Shown one piece after another: positions 14,727 to 30,658 of a DNA stretch of 30,658 nucleotides. Every line of letters begins with the position of its first letter. The stretch's first letter is position 1. This DNA comes from Negativicutes bacterium (GTDB lineage: Bacteria > Bacillota_C > Negativicutes > Sporomusales_B > JARLHX01). The position numbers and the translations under genes were made by a program. The stretch spans positions 1 through 30,658 of the forward strand of contig JARLHY010000108.1 of assembly GCA_031292015.1 (NCBI GenBank). Direction: 5' to 3'. A model generated the notes under the pieces. The model saw only the letters and a list, made by a program, of their open reading frames with translations. It had not been told where the DNA came from and made no database searches.

Positions 14727-14990
14727 ATCGCCTTATCAACGAAGCTAATTGCCACTCGATTACTTTGCCTGTTCTCCTGCCGCAAAAGTGCCGGACGGCG
14801 AAGTTCCGGATCAAGGCGCTGTATGGCTAAGGCCGACAGCTATCGTACCGTCGCCCATGACGCATCCATGCGCAGGGGCTCCTCGCACGGTCGTCCTGAC
14901 CGCGCGTACGATGCCGTTACCGGCATTCTTAGCCAACAGCGCCTAAGCTCCTCCACTACGCCGCCGGACACCCTTGCGGCCCTAATTCTT
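14727..14990 (+). repeat. Degenerate long repeat family, full copy B (nested palindrome)
   Basis: About 264 bp without a convincing gene. The outer landmarks are CCGCAAAAGTGCCGGACGGC and CGCCGCCGGACACCCTTGC. The middle holds a nested dyad, AGGCGCTGT-at-GGCTAA against TTAGCC-a-ACAGCGCCT, with ATCGTAC against GTACGAT inside it. The left 27 bases are identical to copy A, and an inverted, diverged copy lies at 16571-16835. It fills the gap between the XRE terminator and the AT-rich membrane protein gene. Confidence 0.8.
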
Positions 14991-24931: not shown

Positions 24932-25879
24932 CTACCGCATACTCATCCATAGCAGCAGCAGCGGAAGCTCGGCGATGATGAACACCGCGGTGGTCAGAAC
25001 AAAAGCGGCGGTGGCGATATCGACATTCAGCTTGTGAAGCTGCACGGCTATCACCGTGTTTACCGCGGTAGGCATCGCCGCCAGCACGACGATGGTGTTC
25101 ACAATGGTCTGATTGGTGATCAGCGCGCTGGCGATCAGGTAACCGACGACAGGGGTCAGGATGAGCTTGATGGGAACCAGATCCAGAATCACCGAATAAT
25201 ATTTGCGCATGCCGGCGGTGTCAATGGCGTAGCCGATGGGGATGAGAGCCGTCCAGGCCCCCAGGTGCACCAGCGGGTCGACCATCTGCCCGGCAAGCAC
25301 CGGGCGGGCGACACCGGCAAGGTTCAGCGCGATGCCGATGGCCATGCCGACAACCGGCAGTTGGGTGCGGGTAAACAGCAGGTTGAACAACGACTGCTGG
25401 CTGAAGTCTTCGCCGATGCTTTTCTGATAGTAGTACTGGGCCAGGGGAAAGCAGAACATGAACATGAAGGCGTTTTGCAGCAGTACAATCATCTGGGAAG
25501 CGGCAAACCCGATTTCACCGAACAGGATATAGGCGCACAGCCCGCCCAGCGAGGTAGTGTTGGACAGCATGGCGCTGAGAATGTAGCTGCCTTTGTCGAG
25601 TTGGCTGACGAATTTGCCCTTCATCCGTAAATAGGCCGCGGCACCCGGAATCAGAAACAGCAGGATGCCGATGACCGGCAGCCAGAGCAGCGAGTAATTC
25701 AGCGGCATCGTCCATAAGGTAAGCACCGATAAAATCGGATAAAGAACGCAGATGTTGATCAAAATCAGCCTGCGGAAAAAGTCCTTGTCAAGCTTGGACT
25801 GGCGGCGGCATAAAATCCCGACAACCAGCGGCACAACCAAATCAAAGCACAGGTACAGCACCTTGGTTTGCAGATCCAC
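24932..25879 (-). CDS. AEC-family (auxin efflux carrier-type) transporter
   Basis: A 315-residue protein with ten hydrophobic segments in two five-helix halves. Family features are LSNTTSLGGLCAYILFG in the first half (the Asn-containing crossover helix) and VLAAMPTAVNTVIAVQLHKLNVDIATAAFVLTTAVF in the second. Bacterial AEC members export or import malate, malonate and other carboxylates. The GTG at 25879 is chosen because GGAG lies eight bases upstream; a GTG at 25888 would touch the Shine-Dalgarno. First gene of a likely operon with the NCS2 transporter, and divergent from the alkaline phosphatase operon. Confidence 0.87.
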   Translation of the reverse strand: MDLQTKVLYLCFDLVVPLVVGILCRRQSKLDKDFFRRLILINICVLYPILSVLTLWTMPLNYSLLWLPVIGILLFLIPGAAAYLRMKGKFVSQLDKGSYILSAMLSNTTSLGGLCAYILFGEIGFAASQMIVLLQNAFMFMFCFPLAQYYYQKSIGEDFSQQSLFNLLFTRTQLPVVGMAIGIALNLAGVARPVLAGQMVDPLVHLGAWTALIPIGYAIDTAGMRKYYSVILDLVPIKLILTPVVGYLIASALITNQTIVNTIVVLAAMPTAVNTVIAVQLHKLNVDIATAAFVLTTAVFIIAELPLLLLWMSMR

Positions 25880-26060
25880 CAGCAACACTCCTTATCAAAG
25901 GCCATGACTTATCACCGTGCCGATTGGGCGACATCCCAAGAATCCTCTAAACTGAGTTATTATACCAAATATATCTCCTCTTGTCATCCTGCCCGGGGCC
26001 ATGGAGACAGGCCGCAGATGACACTCCCATTTTCTTCAGCCGGGTAGCGGCAGCGCAAAT

Positions 26061-26114
26061 TTAACAATCTTTTTACAAGAACTTAATATGTCCCAGGCGG
26101 ACGAGAGCTAAAAT
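26061..26114 (+). promoter_or_regulatory. PhoP-box-like array and -10 of the alkaline phosphatase operon
   Basis: TTAACA (26061), TTTACA (26072) and TTAATA (26083) repeat at an 11-bp period, as in Bacillus-type PhoP boxes (TT[A/T/C]ACA with ~5-bp spacers). TAAAAT (26109-26114) would be the -10, and no separate consensus -35 is seen. This fits activation under phosphate limitation. Confidence 0.6.
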
Positions 26115-26149
26115 GAAGATACATTCACATCATACAAGGAGGGTTACTT

Positions 26150-27946
26150 TTGACAGAGAGCTTTTTTACTTTACTAAGGATTCGCGGCCTTAAAACGGTC
26201 GCTACCTTGATGGTCCTCACCCTGATGTTTGGCAACCTGTGTTTCGCGTATTCCCTTCCCGTCGCCTCCCCGATTACGGTACTGCCCATCGACCACGCCA
26301 AATTCCTCGCCGGTCAAAAATTTGATTTCCTTGTCGAAGTACATAACGCTTCCGCCAGTGACATCAGCGTCACCGTGAACGGCACTCCCGCCGACAAATA
26401 TTTTGATAAAGCGGCTGTTGCCAAAATCGATGACTCTCTGGCGACCTACCGCATCGACGACGTCGCCTTCGCAAGCGCCGGTATGCTGGAGATCGCCGTC
26501 AAGGCATCCACGGCAAGCGGCCCGGCGACCCGCACCGTTCGCTATGAAGTGGTAAGCAGCGCTGCCCCCAAACACGCCAAGAACGTCATTTTGTTCATCG
26601 GTGACGGCATGAGCCTGCAGGCGCGGGAAATGGCCCGCATCCTTTCCAAAGGCATCAGCGAGGGAAAATACAACGACTTACTGGAAATGGAGAAAATGTC
26701 CAATATGGCCATTATCACCACTTCCGGTTATGATTCGCTGGTAACCGACTCCGCCAACAGCGCCTCGGCCTACGCCACCGGGCATAAATCCGTGGTCAAT
26801 GCCATGGGCGTATACGCCGACAGTACCAAAGACCCGTTTGACGATCCGAAGGTCGAGAATATCGTTGAACTGGCCAAACGCACCCGGGGCATGGCGACAG
26901 GCATTGTGTCCACCGCCAACATCACCGACGCAACCCCCGCGGCCATGGTGGCCCATACCCGCCGCCGCGCCGAGCTGAACTTTATCGCCGCCACCATGCT
27001 GGATCCCGTACACCGTCCCGACGTAATCCTGGGTGGGGGATCGCAGCAGTTCCTGCCGATGTCCACACCTGGTTCGAAACGGAAAGACGACCGAAATCTC
27101 ATCGAAGAATTCAAAACAGCCGGCTATAGCTTTTCCGGCACCAGGACCGAGCTGCTGAACACACCGGCCGGAACTACGAAACTGCTCGGCCTGTACAACC
27201 TTGACAACATGAATGTTTACCTTGACCGCGAAGTGTTGAAAAGCCCGAACGCGCTGGGTGGCTTCGTCGATCAGCCCACTCTGATGGATATGACCAGCAA
27301 AGCCATCGATGCGCTGAGCAAGAACCCCAACGGTTTCTTCCTCATGGTCGAGGGGGCCTGCATCGATAAACAGCTCCATGTGCTGGACTGGCAGCGGGCC
27401 ACCTATGATACCATCGAAATGGATAAAGCCGTCGGCATCGCCAAGGAATTCGCCCGGAAAAACGGCGACACCATGATCATCGTCGTCGCTGACCATGCGC
27501 ATGGCGCGAGCATCACCGGCACCTATCACGAACTTGACGGCAAAACCGGCCGCGAAGCGGTCCGCATATACGCCGAAGCCGGCTTTCCGACCTTTGAGGA
27601 CAAAGACGGCGACGGCTTCCCCGACAATCCCGATCCCAGTGTGACACTGGCGGTACAGTTCGCCAATCATCCCGACTTTAACGACAACTATCGCCTCAAA
27701 CCGGAACCCACCGTACCCGCCATCATGGCAAACGGAAAAGCTGTCGTCAACCCCAGGACCCAGGGCGAATTCCAGCCTGGCAACATACCGGCTTCCGATC
27801 CTTCCGAGGTCCACTCCGCCGACGACATCATCCTGAACGCCCATGGTCCCGGTGCCGAATACTTCAACGGCGTCATGGACAACACCGAAGTCTTTTTCGC
27901 GATGGTCAAAGCCTTGGGGCTTGACGGCAAACGCAGCCAGAAGTAA
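26150..27946 (+). CDS. Exported alkaline phosphatase (PhoA superfamily)
   Basis: A 598-residue phosphomonoesterase with a signal peptide (hydrophobic 16-33, cleavage near CFA-YS). Residues ~40-137 form a beta-rich N-terminal domain not found in E. coli PhoA (ITVLPIDHAKFLAGQKFDF...). The catalytic domain follows: GDGMS (151-155) with a metal Asp, TDSANSASAYATG with nucleophile Ser201, EGACIDKQLH with Glu401, Asp406 and His410, and VADHAHG (446-452) with Asp448 and His449. The metal set looks complete, so it should bind two zinc ions and probably magnesium. It starts at a TTG six bases after AAGGAGGG. The next gene starts 20 bp after its stop. The PhoP-box-like array upstream suggests phosphate-starvation induction. 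Confidence 0.92.
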   Translation: MTESFFTLLRIRGLKTVATLMVLTLMFGNLCFAYSLPVASPITVLPIDHAKFLAGQKFDFLVEVHNASASDISVTVNGTPADKYFDKAAVAKIDDSLATYRIDDVAFASAGMLEIAVKASTASGPATRTVRYEVVSSAAPKHAKNVILFIGDGMSLQAREMARILSKGISEGKYNDLLEMEKMSNMAIITTSGYDSLVTDSANSASAYATGHKSVVNAMGVYADSTKDPFDDPKVENIVELAKRTRGMATGIVSTANITDATPAAMVAHTRRRAELNFIAATMLDPVHRPDVILGGGSQQFLPMSTPGSKRKDDRNLIEEFKTAGYSFSGTRTELLNTPAGTTKLLGLYNLDNMNVYLDREVLKSPNALGGFVDQPTLMDMTSKAIDALSKNPNGFFLMVEGACIDKQLHVLDWQRATYDTIEMDKAVGIAKEFARKNGDTMIIVVADHAHGASITGTYHELDGKTGREAVRIYAEAGFPTFEDKDGDGFPDNPDPSVTLAVQFANHPDFNDNYRLKPEPTVPAIMANGKAVVNPRTQGEFQPGNIPASDPSEVHSADDIILNAHGPGAEYFNGVMDNTEVFFAMVKALGLDGKRSQK

Positions 27947-27965
27947 TCTACCGGAGGCATCTCAA

Positions 27966-28508
27966 ATGAAAAAACCGATCCCGCGGCTGGCAGGATTTCT
28001 CCTGGGGCTGTTACTGACCGGAAACGGCATGGTTTGGGGTCTGCAACCGGAAAAGGCGGTTCCCGGCTGGGAACCGCCGGTTTTCTTCCGGACGGCCCAT
28101 GCGGCCCCGTTCTGGGATACCTGGCTGCGTTCCCCGGCTACCCCCCTGGCTTTTGAAGAAATGTACAGCGGTGCGTCGTCCCTTGGACTGCAGTTGTCGC
28201 CGAAGCTGAAAAGCCTGGAAGGAAAGCGGGTGTCGATCATCGGCTTTATGGCTCCGCCGCTGAAGCCAACCCTTTCTTTTTTCGTTCTGACCCAGGTCCC
28301 GCTGGCAGTCTGCCCGTTCTGTTCCACCGACGCGGACTGGCCGAGCAACATCGTGCTGATCAAACTGAACGAGCCGATCACTTCCCTCCCGTTTGACCAG
28401 CCTGTCAAAGCGACAGGCAGACTGGAACTGGGAACGCAGGTCGACGAAGAAACAGGGTTTGTGAGCCTGGTGCGGATACAGGCCGACACTGTGGAAAAGG
28501 CGGACTAA
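27966..28508 (+). CDS. Small exported protein with CPFC motif, DUF3299-like
   Basis: A 180-residue protein. A signal-like N-terminus (KKPIPRLAGFLLGLLLTGNG, with a possible cleavage after AHA near residue 46) precedes a compact beta domain: LKSLEGKRVSIIGFMAPPLKP, FFVLTQVPLAVCPFCST, NIVLIKLNEPI, QPVKATGRLELG. The order GKRVSIIGFM - CPFC - KATGRLELG resembles DUF3299-type proteins that accompany LolD/FtsX-like transporters in metal-responsive clusters. That comparison is from memory and tentative. The CPFC pair could bind metal or act in thiol chemistry. The ATG at 27966 follows GGAGG. It lies 20 bp after the phosphatase and 26 bp before the ABC ATPase, so it is probably co-transcribed with both. 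Confidence 0.7.
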   Translation: MKKPIPRLAGFLLGLLLTGNGMVWGLQPEKAVPGWEPPVFFRTAHAAPFWDTWLRSPATPLAFEEMYSGASSLGLQLSPKLKSLEGKRVSIIGFMAPPLKPTLSFFVLTQVPLAVCPFCSTDADWPSNIVLIKLNEPITSLPFDQPVKATGRLELGTQVDEETGFVSLVRIQADTVEKAD

Positions 28509-28534
28509 CCCGCGGGAAAGACTGGAGCGATACA

Positions 28535-29209
28535 ATGCTGACAATAAGCAATCTTGTCAAAGAATACCGCCAGCCCAACGGCGAGACCATTGTCGTGGCA
28601 GAGGTAGGGCAGCTGATCGCCGGTCAGGGAGAGCAGCTTGTCCTGGCCGGGCCCAGCGGATCAGGTAAAACGACGCTGCTGCACCTGATCGCCGGGCTCA
28701 TCCCGCCGACTTCCGGAGAAATAGGCTGGGAAGGCGAACGCATCGACGCCTGGCCGGAACGAAAGCGGGACGCCTGGCGGGCCGGCAATGTCGGCTATAT
28801 TTTTCAAAACTTCAATCTGCTGCCAGGCCTGGACGTTATCGAAAACATCAGGGTGGCCGCCTCGCTGGGGGGGCGGAAGTTCGGCAGTGAGGCCCACCGG
28901 CGCATCACCGACCTGCTGACCCGGGTGGGGCTGGCTGACCGGGGCGGTCACAAGCCCTCCCAGCTCAGCATGGGTGAACAGCAGCGGGTGGCGGTGGTCC
29001 GGGCACTGATCAACAACCCCCGGCTGATTTTGGCCGACGAACCCACCGCCAGCCTTGACCGGGACAACTCGGAGATTGTCCTGGAATTGCTGCAGAATCT
29101 CTGCCGGGAAAATGGCAGCTTGCTGATTCTGGCGACGCATGACCGCGATGTCATGGCCCGCTTCGGACGGGTGCAGGAATTGCGGCGTCCGGGGAGGAAT
29201 CCGGCATGA
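28535..29209 (+). CDS. ABC transporter ATPase, LolD/MacB type
   Basis: A 224-residue ATPase with Walker A GPSGSGKT (39-46), Q-loop FQNFNLLPGL (~90-99), signature LSMGEQQR (144-151), Walker B LILADEP (164-170) and the switch His in ATHDRD. The second signature residue pair is SM instead of the usual SG, a modest deviation. The subfamily pairs with FtsX-like mechanotransmission permeases, which move or release periplasmic substrates rather than importing through a channel. Its stop overlaps the start of the permease gene by four bases (ATGA), so the two are translationally coupled. Part of the phosphatase operon. Confidence 0.9.
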   Translation: MLTISNLVKEYRQPNGETIVVAEVGQLIAGQGEQLVLAGPSGSGKTTLLHLIAGLIPPTSGEIGWEGERIDAWPERKRDAWRAGNVGYIFQNFNLLPGLDVIENIRVAASLGGRKFGSEAHRRITDLLTRVGLADRGGHKPSQLSMGEQQRVAVVRALINNPRLILADEPTASLDRDNSEIVLELLQNLCRENGSLLILATHDRDVMARFGRVQELRRPGRNPA

Positions 29210-30453
29210 TTCATCTTTTGATTGGCTGGCGAAACCTGTGGGCCAAGCCGCTGCAGAACCTGCTTACCGTCGCGGTGGTAGCCACCGCTTTGTCCATGAC
29301 TGTCACCGTGCTGCTGCTGGCGTCCAGCATTCACTACGGCTTGGTGCGCGCCACCGAACCGTTCGATTTGATTGTAGGCGCCAAAGGCAGTCAGAACCAG
29401 TTGGTGCTGAACACCGTATTTTTACAGGATGTACCGGTCGGCAACATTGATTACGCCATCGCGGCAGAACTGGCGGCGAACCCCCTGGTGGAATCGGCTG
29501 TTCCCATGGGCTTTGGCGACAATTACCGGGGCTACCGCGTTGTCGGCACTGAACCAGCGCTATTTGAGCACCGGGCCAAAGCCGACCGACCACCCTGGCT
29601 GCAAATAGCCGAGGGCCGCCCCTTCCAGGCTTCCTTCGAAGCCGTCCTGGGGGCCAAGACAGCCCGGGAAACCGGACTGAAACTTGGGGACCAGTTCGTA
29701 TCATCCCACGGTGTGGTCGCCGGCGGGGAAAGCCACGCTGACCAAAAATACACCGTTGTAGGTATCCTGCGGCAGGTGGACGGTCCCTACGACCAGGCGA
29801 TCCTGACCTCTCTCCAGAGTATTTGGCAGGCTCATGAGCACCACTCCGACCCGCAGCCGGCAACTGCCGCATCTGTCGCCCATCAGGCTGCGGACGATGA
29901 TGACGACGACCATAACCACGGCCACGGCACCACCGTCATACTGGTCAAACCGAAAGGTTACGCGGAAGCCATGCGGCTTTATCAACAATTTCAAAAAGAT
30001 TCCCGTACTCAGATGGTCTTTCCCGCCCAGGTTGTGGTCAATCTGTTCGCGGTATTGGGTCAGGGGGAAAAGGTGCTGAACATGATTGGTTATTCCGTGT
30101 TCGCCATGGCCCTGCTGCTTGTTTCTTTCTCTGTTTACTGGTCATCCCTCAGCCGGGCGCGGGACCGGGCGATCCTGCGGGCCATCGGGGCGAGCCGGAC
30201 CGACATATTTTTGATCATCGCGGTGGAAGGCCTGCTCATGGTCTGGTCCGGTGTGTTGATCGGAGTCTTAGCCGGCCACGGAATATTTTCGCTCATCACC
30301 TCTCTGCTGCAGCAAAAAACCGCCATTTCCTTTGCCGGTCCGTTCACCGCAGCGGAAGGTTATACTATCGCCGCCGCCCTGCTGATCGGGCTACTGGCCG
30401 CCGTCATCCCGGCCTGGTCCACGGCAAAGAGCGATATTGCCGCCAATCTGTGA
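29206..30453 (+). CDS. FtsX-like ABC permease with His/Asp-rich periplasmic loop
   Basis: A 415-residue permease with the MacB/LolC topology: TM1 (about 18-42), a large extracytoplasmic domain (43-280), then three helices near 293-312, 332-358 and 384-403. The conserved FtsX elements are ARDRAILRAIGASRTDIFLI and AVIPAWSTAKSDIA. Unusually, the periplasmic domain contains a metal-ligand-rich loop at about 210-241 (HEHH, later six Asp in a row followed by HNHGHG). Such loops bind zinc or related ions in other transporters. The GAKGSQNQLVLNTVF segment is common in permeases of zinc-responsive LolCDE-like clusters. It overlaps the ATPase gene by four bases and ends the operon. Confidence 0.88.
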   Translation: MIHLLIGWRNLWAKPLQNLLTVAVVATALSMTVTVLLLASSIHYGLVRATEPFDLIVGAKGSQNQLVLNTVFLQDVPVGNIDYAIAAELAANPLVESAVPMGFGDNYRGYRVVGTEPALFEHRAKADRPPWLQIAEGRPFQASFEAVLGAKTARETGLKLGDQFVSSHGVVAGGESHADQKYTVVGILRQVDGPYDQAILTSLQSIWQAHEHHSDPQPATAASVAHQAADDDDDDHNHGHGTTVILVKPKGYAEAMRLYQQFQKDSRTQMVFPAQVVVNLFAVLGQGEKVLNMIGYSVFAMALLLVSFSVYWSSLSRARDRAILRAIGASRTDIFLIIAVEGLLMVWSGVLIGVLAGHGIFSLITSLLQQKTAISFAGPFTAAEGYTIAAALLIGLLAAVIPAWSTAKSDIAANL

Positions 30454-30538: not shown

Positions 30539-30542
30539 CGTA

Positions 30543-30658
<116 letters not shown>

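Follow-up and report, generated by a model that had tools for sequence, protein, structure and literature searches.

The 30,658-nt stretch analysed here, referred to as a whole as the window, comes from a Negativicutes bacterium (contig JARLHY010000108.1, assembly GCA_031292015.1) and carries near its end a gene for an exported PhoA-type alkaline phosphatase followed by genes for a membrane system of the ATP-binding cassette (ABC) type. The phosphatase gene (26150..27946, + strand) has a TTG start and encodes 598 residues with a clear PF00245 match (E-value 2.8e-84). It is followed on the same strand by a gene for an exported protein with a CPFC motif, hereafter the CPFC protein (27966..28508, +), which is a distant relative of DUF3299/PA4066/ZrgE with a predicted oligonucleotide/oligosaccharide-binding (OB) fold, then by a LolD-like ABC ATPase gene (28535..29209, +; PF00005, E-value 3.6e-33) and by a gene for a permease of the FtsX/MacB fold that falls into the Zrg branch (29206..30453, +; 415 residues; PF02687). 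An earlier reading of the letters, made without database searches and here called the original prediction, had described the same four genes in this order. It had given gaps of 20 and 26 bp and a 4-bp overlap, of which the second gap and the ATPase/permease overlap were reproduced, while the gap between the phosphatase and CPFC genes measures 19 bp. It had also called the gaps terminator-free, and indeed none of the nine terminator-like sites in the window falls within them. Judged from this anatomy, the four genes probably form one operon and would be transcribed together. Four weak (9/12) sigma-70-like sites were found on the + strand, three within the phosphatase gene and one where the ATPase gene begins, and the ABC genes may therefore have a separate promoter, as considered with the original prediction. 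Within the early CPFC coding sequence (28055-28078) is a GC-rich hairpin of 10 pairs with T-rich DNA after it, which may be an attenuator or a chance feature.

Upstream of the phosphatase gene lies a Pho-box-like triple direct repeat, TTAACA-N5-TTTACA-N5-TTAATA (26061..26088, +), with an 11-bp period and a score of 17/18. It is the only site scoring at least 16/18 on either strand of the whole window, and a score of 17 was reached in 0 of 3000 shuffled versions of the 250 nt upstream (dinucleotides preserved). A -10-like hexamer, TAAAAT (26109..26114, +), starts 20 nt past the last repeat.

In order to follow the gene order in other genomes, contigs of 84,980 species were searched with the CPFC alignment alone (a single-sequence permease search of the contigs gave no match), and the best 80 of the 535 places found were analysed for the four operon genes. 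Of these 80 loci, 76 have the phosphatase gene upstream and in the same orientation, and one (L063) has it downstream; no phosphatase was found in the remaining three, L046 and two that start at a contig edge (L070, L071). The ATPase gene follows the CPFC gene in 79 of the 80 loci and the permease gene in 76; the permease-less loci end at contig edges (L003, L024, L061) or look degenerate or misassembled (L013). The 80 loci span Negativicutes, Synergistota, Planctomycetota, a deltaproteobacterial metagenome-assembled genome, alpha- and betaproteobacteria, Paenibacillaceae and other Bacillota.

Linkage was then counted in genome samples. Among 250 Negativicutes genomes (the class of Sporomusa malonica, G003, as taken from L006), 51 have a CPFC gene and 88 have PF00245, and PF00245 lies directly upstream of the CPFC gene on the same strand in all 51 CPFC-bearing genomes. 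The permease was detected in at least 51 genomes, 50 of them shared with the CPFC set (G196 has the CPFC gene without the permease), and at the cut-offs used it was absent from 161 of the 162 genomes lacking PF00245. Permease counts, here and in Paenibacillaceae, are lower bounds (cut-off 1e-40, number of candidates capped); G792 was missed although locus L230 shows the gene. Among 104 Paenibacillaceae genomes (the family of the Paenibacillus genome G015, as taken from L072), at least 62 permease genes were present, and 57 of the 62 found have PF00245 in the same orientation no more than 4 kb upstream; two of the exceptions (G796, G797) stand at contig edges. At the cut-offs used, the permease was absent from all 37 Paenibacillaceae genomes without PF00245. 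When profile matches in this family were divided into strong and weak CPFC genes, PF00245 was upstream of 14/17 and 16/17, respectively. A CPFC relative is present in 7 of 190 alphaproteobacterial genomes. It is phosphatase-linked in G013 (L067), in L217 (with a divergent ATPase) and in L219, and no phosphatase was found in L218 and L220, both short contigs. Two further alphaproteobacterial loci (L221, L222) each have only a CPHC-type homologue, with neither ABC genes nor a phosphatase. In a sample of the whole phylum of G003, 2 of 149 genomes have the CPFC gene and 32 of 149 have PF00245. The linkage is conserved, and the counts for Negativicutes and Paenibacillaceae run counter to the possibility, considered with the original prediction, that the ABC genes of relatives usually occur without a phosphatase, as far as this branch is concerned.

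Ten Paenibacillaceae loci (L223-L232) were found to have a second gene order: phosphatase, ATPase and permease, followed by an OB-type lipoprotein in which ECPFDNGDET replaces CPFC. The profile of this lipoprotein matches that of the CPFC family (hhalign E-value 1.7e-14, probability 98). Most of the 57 linked Paenibacillaceae permeases show the shorter distance of this second order, and ten such loci were read. The phosphatases of the second arrangement belong to another subfamily, with H153/H328 in 7/10 and, in the other three, a G at the first position that is perhaps due to misalignment. That one permease family occurs in two gene orders and with two phosphatase subfamilies favours a functional tie over a single frozen neighbourhood. 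As side observations, permease and OB-type lipoprotein share a single 731-aa open frame in L232 (3138-5333), possibly a natural fusion or a sequence error, and one phosphatase of this arrangement (L226:486-2213) bears a C-terminal Cu_amine_oxidN1 domain.

The window phosphatase matches E. coli PhoA at 12/12 catalytic and metal positions by residue mapping and is of the D153/K328 type. It differs from PhoA-type enzymes (PF00245) in having about 100 extra N-terminal residues, and also in its neighbour genes, which are conserved in most of the relatives examined. The phosphatases of the CPFC loci retain the catalytic serine and the Zn/Mg ligands, with one T155S as the sole departure among aligned residues, and have D153 in 74/74 and K328 in 76/76 cases where these positions are aligned. 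Nine classical standalone phosphatases, hand-picked from the PF00245 list, have H153 in 9/9 and W328 in 8/9 cases. Phosphatases with H153/W328 prefer cobalt, and those with D153/K328 or H153/H328 prefer zinc. Alkaline phosphatase is usually thought to acquire its metal spontaneously. By eye, the window enzyme has an ordinary-looking signal peptide with no clear lipobox, and a stretch at about 27597-27640, EDKDGDGFPDNPDP, resembles a calcium-binding loop.

The permease was modelled with AlphaFold2 (AF2) at a predicted local distance difference test (pLDDT) score of 88, and its fold is near those of LolE, MacB, 5xu1 and FtsX. Three exterior histidines (H168, H177 and H210; codon span 29707..29835, +) are conserved in 111/111, 109/111 and 111/111 family permeases, respectively (two fragments were excluded, and L234 duplicates L070), and none of the three is present in E. 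coli LolC, LolE or MacB. In the AF2 model, a beta hairpin carries H168 and H177 on its two sides, and H210 ends the helix that precedes a disordered, His/Asp-rich exterior loop (residues 214-238; 29845..29919, +; pLDDT below 50). The three residues are putatively one metal site. The HEHH...DDDDDDHNHGHG loop of the original prediction is real and occupies residues 210-240. The segment of residues 203-241, which includes H210, has at least three histidines in 58 of 77 permeases (those of the CPFC loci and the window). It is most extreme in the Taylorella locus L044, where it has 52 histidines in 158 residues. The permeases of L044 and L047 group with those of Veillonellaceae, which suggests gene transfer.

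The ATPase scored below the cut-off of all NCBIfam models among the 25 listed matches. Membership of LolCDE was rejected (the lolCE model reached 30.7 bits against a cut-off of 362), as was that of MacAB-TolC, since ATPase and permease are separate open reading frames and there is no MacA among the four genes. From the MacB/LolCDE/HrtBA superfamily of mechanotransmission ABC systems the operon is set apart by these same two features, by its occurrence in Paenibacillaceae, and by the three histidines that are missing from E. coli LolC, LolE and MacB. Known LolE-, MacB- and FtsX-type members act on exterior protein or lipid partners, and the fold of the permease could accordingly be taken to mean that the machine acts on the phosphatase protein itself, extracting it from the membrane or activating it in the manner of LolCDE or FtsEX, with metal as a regulator. 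We consider such a release or folding role very improbable: the window phosphatase has the ordinary signal peptide described above, the system is present in Paenibacillaceae, which lack an outer membrane, and the His-rich loop would be left unexplained.

The CPFC protein has no Pfam match. Its motif (C116-P-F-C119; codons 28311..28322, +) is invariant in alignment A1 (26 sequences), as are D122 and W125 past the motif, and CPFC is present in 81/81 proteins (the 80 loci and the window). In a fold search, the AF2 model (pLDDT 74) had 4hsp as the best PDB match and CcmE among weak OB-fold matches. The fold search recovered PA4066, which was missed by PDB sequence searches with the CPFC protein, both single and profile, and the model suggests that the CPFC protein shares the OB fold of PA4066 (DUF3299). 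The DUF3299 model PF11736 detects 10/26 members of A1 at an E-value of at most 1 (best 0.0083) and does not match the window protein; profile comparison by hhalign gives an E-value of 8e-5 and a probability of 61. Twin-arginine-like signals were seen by eye at the start of proteobacterial CPFC/DUF3299 proteins (L064, L067, L065, L204), and the Paenibacillus counterparts resemble lipoproteins and have long Ala/Pro/Ser-rich linkers.

On sequence grounds, the ABC part of the operon belongs, as a branch, to the Zur-regulated system for zinc starvation known as ZrgABCDE in Vibrio and PA4063-PA4066 in P. aeruginosa. The family profile scored 225-304 bits on 20 Zrg-type loci, against 29-37 bits on E. 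coli LolC, LolE, YbbP and MacB. Both systems have a permease of this family with the three exterior histidines, a LolD-like ATPase and a partner with the DUF3299-type OB fold. The operon differs in having an alkaline phosphatase instead of ZrgA, Pho repeats instead of the Zur palindrome, a His-rich loop on its permease, CPFC where the Zrg partner has GACIHxPPPPxNQ, and another gene order. In 18 of the 19 Zrg-type loci tested, ZrgA was detected by a profile built from four ZrgA sequences, in one case weakly at 23 bits; these 19 regions had been chosen mostly for a permease visible in a short locus (19/30 short loci). The ZrgA (PF10986) profile had no match in the 80 CPFC loci and the window. 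The loop segment that is His-rich in most permeases of CPFC loci has only 1-2 histidines in the 20 other permeases of the family (ZrgA is nearby in 18 of them), and over residues 161-249 the median number of histidines is 7 and 8 in the two phosphatase arrangements versus 4 in the other permeases. A His-rich stretch is therefore found on the permease where ZrgA is missing. In a quick tree, the phosphatase-linked permeases split into two deep groups next to that of Zrg; L151 and L203 are long-branched and of unsure placement. In these two loci (CPFC-type in L151, CAFC-type on a short contig in L203), a window-type permease adjoins the OB protein and neither ZrgA nor a phosphatase was found; they are possible intermediates. 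According to the available text of three studies, Zrg genes act in zinc starvation (PMC9820375, PMC9817125, PMC11481552), and two of them describe the operon as required for low-zinc growth (PMC9820375, PMC9817125). Together, Zrg homology and the three conserved histidines support the metal theme of the original prediction.

The Pho-type repeats were compared between loci, which were counted as independent although some are close kin. In 36 Negativicutes loci, TTWACA repeats at spacing 11 have a mean score of 14.3/18, versus 11.6-12.7 at other spacings and 11.7 in shuffles (z 15). Peaks at spacing 11 were also seen in Synergistota phosphatase operons (11 loci, z 7.9) and in the second arrangement (10 loci, z 7.8), and weakly in the first arrangement of Paenibacillaceae (8 loci, z 5.6, 12.75 versus at most 12.25 elsewhere). 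A CTGTCAT form peaks instead in five alphaproteobacterial loci (z 7.3) and in four betaproteobacterial ones (z 4.4), and six further phosphatase-operon loci gave no clear signal. Of 14 loci examined for the -10-like hexamer, eight (the window, L002, L005-L009 and L024) have it exactly 20 nt past the repeats. In the five Veillonella loci among the 14, the hexamer is poorer and 22-25 nt away, and in L001 there is none in the chosen register. The conserved 11-bp period upstream of the genes in relatives supports the PhoP box proposed for the window.

The Zrg loci (17 examined) have triple repeats that score above shuffles (z 4.3), yet with no peak at spacing 11 (11.24 there, 11.24 at spacing 8 and 11.35 at spacing 14). 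A Zur palindrome with at most two mismatches was found in 12/17 Zrg loci versus 11% of shuffles, and in 11/70 phosphatase operons, below the shuffle rate of 29% (the shuffles preserve base composition only). It was found in 0/10 loci of the second arrangement, and the Bacillus-type Zur core in 0/80. Zur control of the phosphatase operon was rejected because the palindrome is rarer there than in shuffles. In the Zrg locus L204, a FUR-family gene adjoins zrgA. These data also bear on zinc uptake as an explanation, in which the ABC unit would import zinc and be Pho-controlled because synthesis of a self-loading phosphatase drains exterior zinc and starves the cytoplasm. In its favour, the permease family is common to Zrg, needed for low-zinc growth as cited above. 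We nevertheless regard uptake as unlikely, given that Zur palindromes are not enriched upstream of the phosphatase operons and that import would presumably compete with the exported enzyme. To our knowledge, no import path has been described for MacB-fold permeases.

We lean, with slightly better than even confidence, towards a Pho-controlled, zinc-handling ABC/OB-fold unit that serves the exported zinc phosphatase; co-transcription, Pho control, zinc as the metal, the direction of transfer, the role of the CPFC protein and delivery to the phosphatase are what we infer. PhoP/PhoB would switch on the four genes in phosphate starvation, and the exported phosphatase, of the Zn2Mg type, would have to acquire two zinc ions outside the membrane. 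The exterior domain of the permease would gather zinc through its His-rich loop and three-His site, the ATPase would power a MacB-like mechanical stroke, and the OB-fold CPFC protein would be the exterior partner that passes the metal on, most likely to the apo-phosphatase or its immediate surroundings. A more specific form of this proposal, which we put forward tentatively and rate at somewhat below even, is ATP-driven metal loading at the exterior: the permease would concentrate zinc on the three-His site and the CPFC protein would hand it to the apo-phosphatase, as a zinc counterpart of cytochrome c maturation, and in Zrg the same machine would use ZrgA as its metal collector. In CcmABCDE, an ABC ATPase and an OB-fold exterior cofactor carrier serve an exported apo-protein. 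The analogy is one of working only, as the OB similarity is generic, the cofactor is heme and not zinc, and the permease is unrelated.

Several observations weigh against a zinc-handling unit dedicated to the phosphatase. Zrg-type relatives in Pseudomonadota show no phosphatase nearby, and in six Negativicutes genomes (L139-L144) a phosphatase of the operon's subfamily is present but the permease is not. The ABC unit is therefore not strictly required, and a universal need of the phosphatase for it was rejected. Conversely, G397 has the permease without the CPFC gene and without PF00245, the permeases of G743, G772:C29 and G832:C27 are unlinked to PF00245 (in G743, CPFC, ATPase and permease genes occur together without a nearby phosphatase), and L046 has no phosphatase in its 706 upstream bases. 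Fewer than three histidines are present in the loop segment of 19/77 permeases. Others have read Zrg genetics as zinc import or cobalt-metallophore export and not as enzyme metallation. Finally, phosphatase genes that lack ABC partners have Pho repeats upstream as well, both the six of the same subfamily (z 8.1) and the nine classical ones (z 9.9), so that the repeats mark phosphatase genes in general and may serve the phosphatase alone. At the level of single loci, repeats scoring at least 14 are upstream in 4/6 of L139-L144, which have the operon-type phosphatase and no CPFC or permease gene.

The repeats of ABC-less phosphatases would also fit mere co-regulation, with the ABC unit doing another membrane job in phosphate starvation, for example one in which a metallophore, lipid or lipoprotein is exported or extracted; in this respect, the accessible part of one study argues that PA4064-PA4065 export a pyochelin-cobalt complex (PMC11481552). 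We think this quite unlikely, as both gene orders pick PF00245 (within a survey limited to the four operon genes) and the conserved histidines indicate metal. The coupling of ABC unit and phosphatase in the original prediction is thus supported in part, by the Pho box, the linkage and the metal theme, and weakened by the phosphatase-free Zrg relatives and the six ABC-less genomes.

Around the operon, a 5S rRNA gene (30542-30658, - strand) lies convergently downstream of the permease gene. Upstream, a divergent gene with a weak auxin-efflux-carrier match (24932-25888, -) has an 11/12 promoter-like site at 25987-25959, and a TwoAYGGAY cis-regulatory RNA (61.2 bits versus a cut-off of 43) was found at 14801-14958 (-).

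We found no report of a link between the phosphatase and DUF3299/Zrg-type ABC genes in the titles and abstract openings of the open-access papers listed (subscription papers were outside coverage). Little is settled about how secreted metalloenzymes obtain metal once they are outside the membrane. In many bacteria, the gene of a zinc-dependent phosphatase stands beside genes of a membrane machine related to a zinc-starvation system, and this machine may handle the metal of the enzyme. If this is true, exterior metal acquisition could be tested through a conserved ABC partner with Pho-type control. Such a partner would also tie phosphorus demand to zinc demand at the molecular level; when Trichodesmium was grown on organic phosphorus, its Zn:C ratio rose 3.5-fold according to one study (PMC9069106). 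For the Zrg system itself, the three conserved histidines and an enzyme partner would be new clues.

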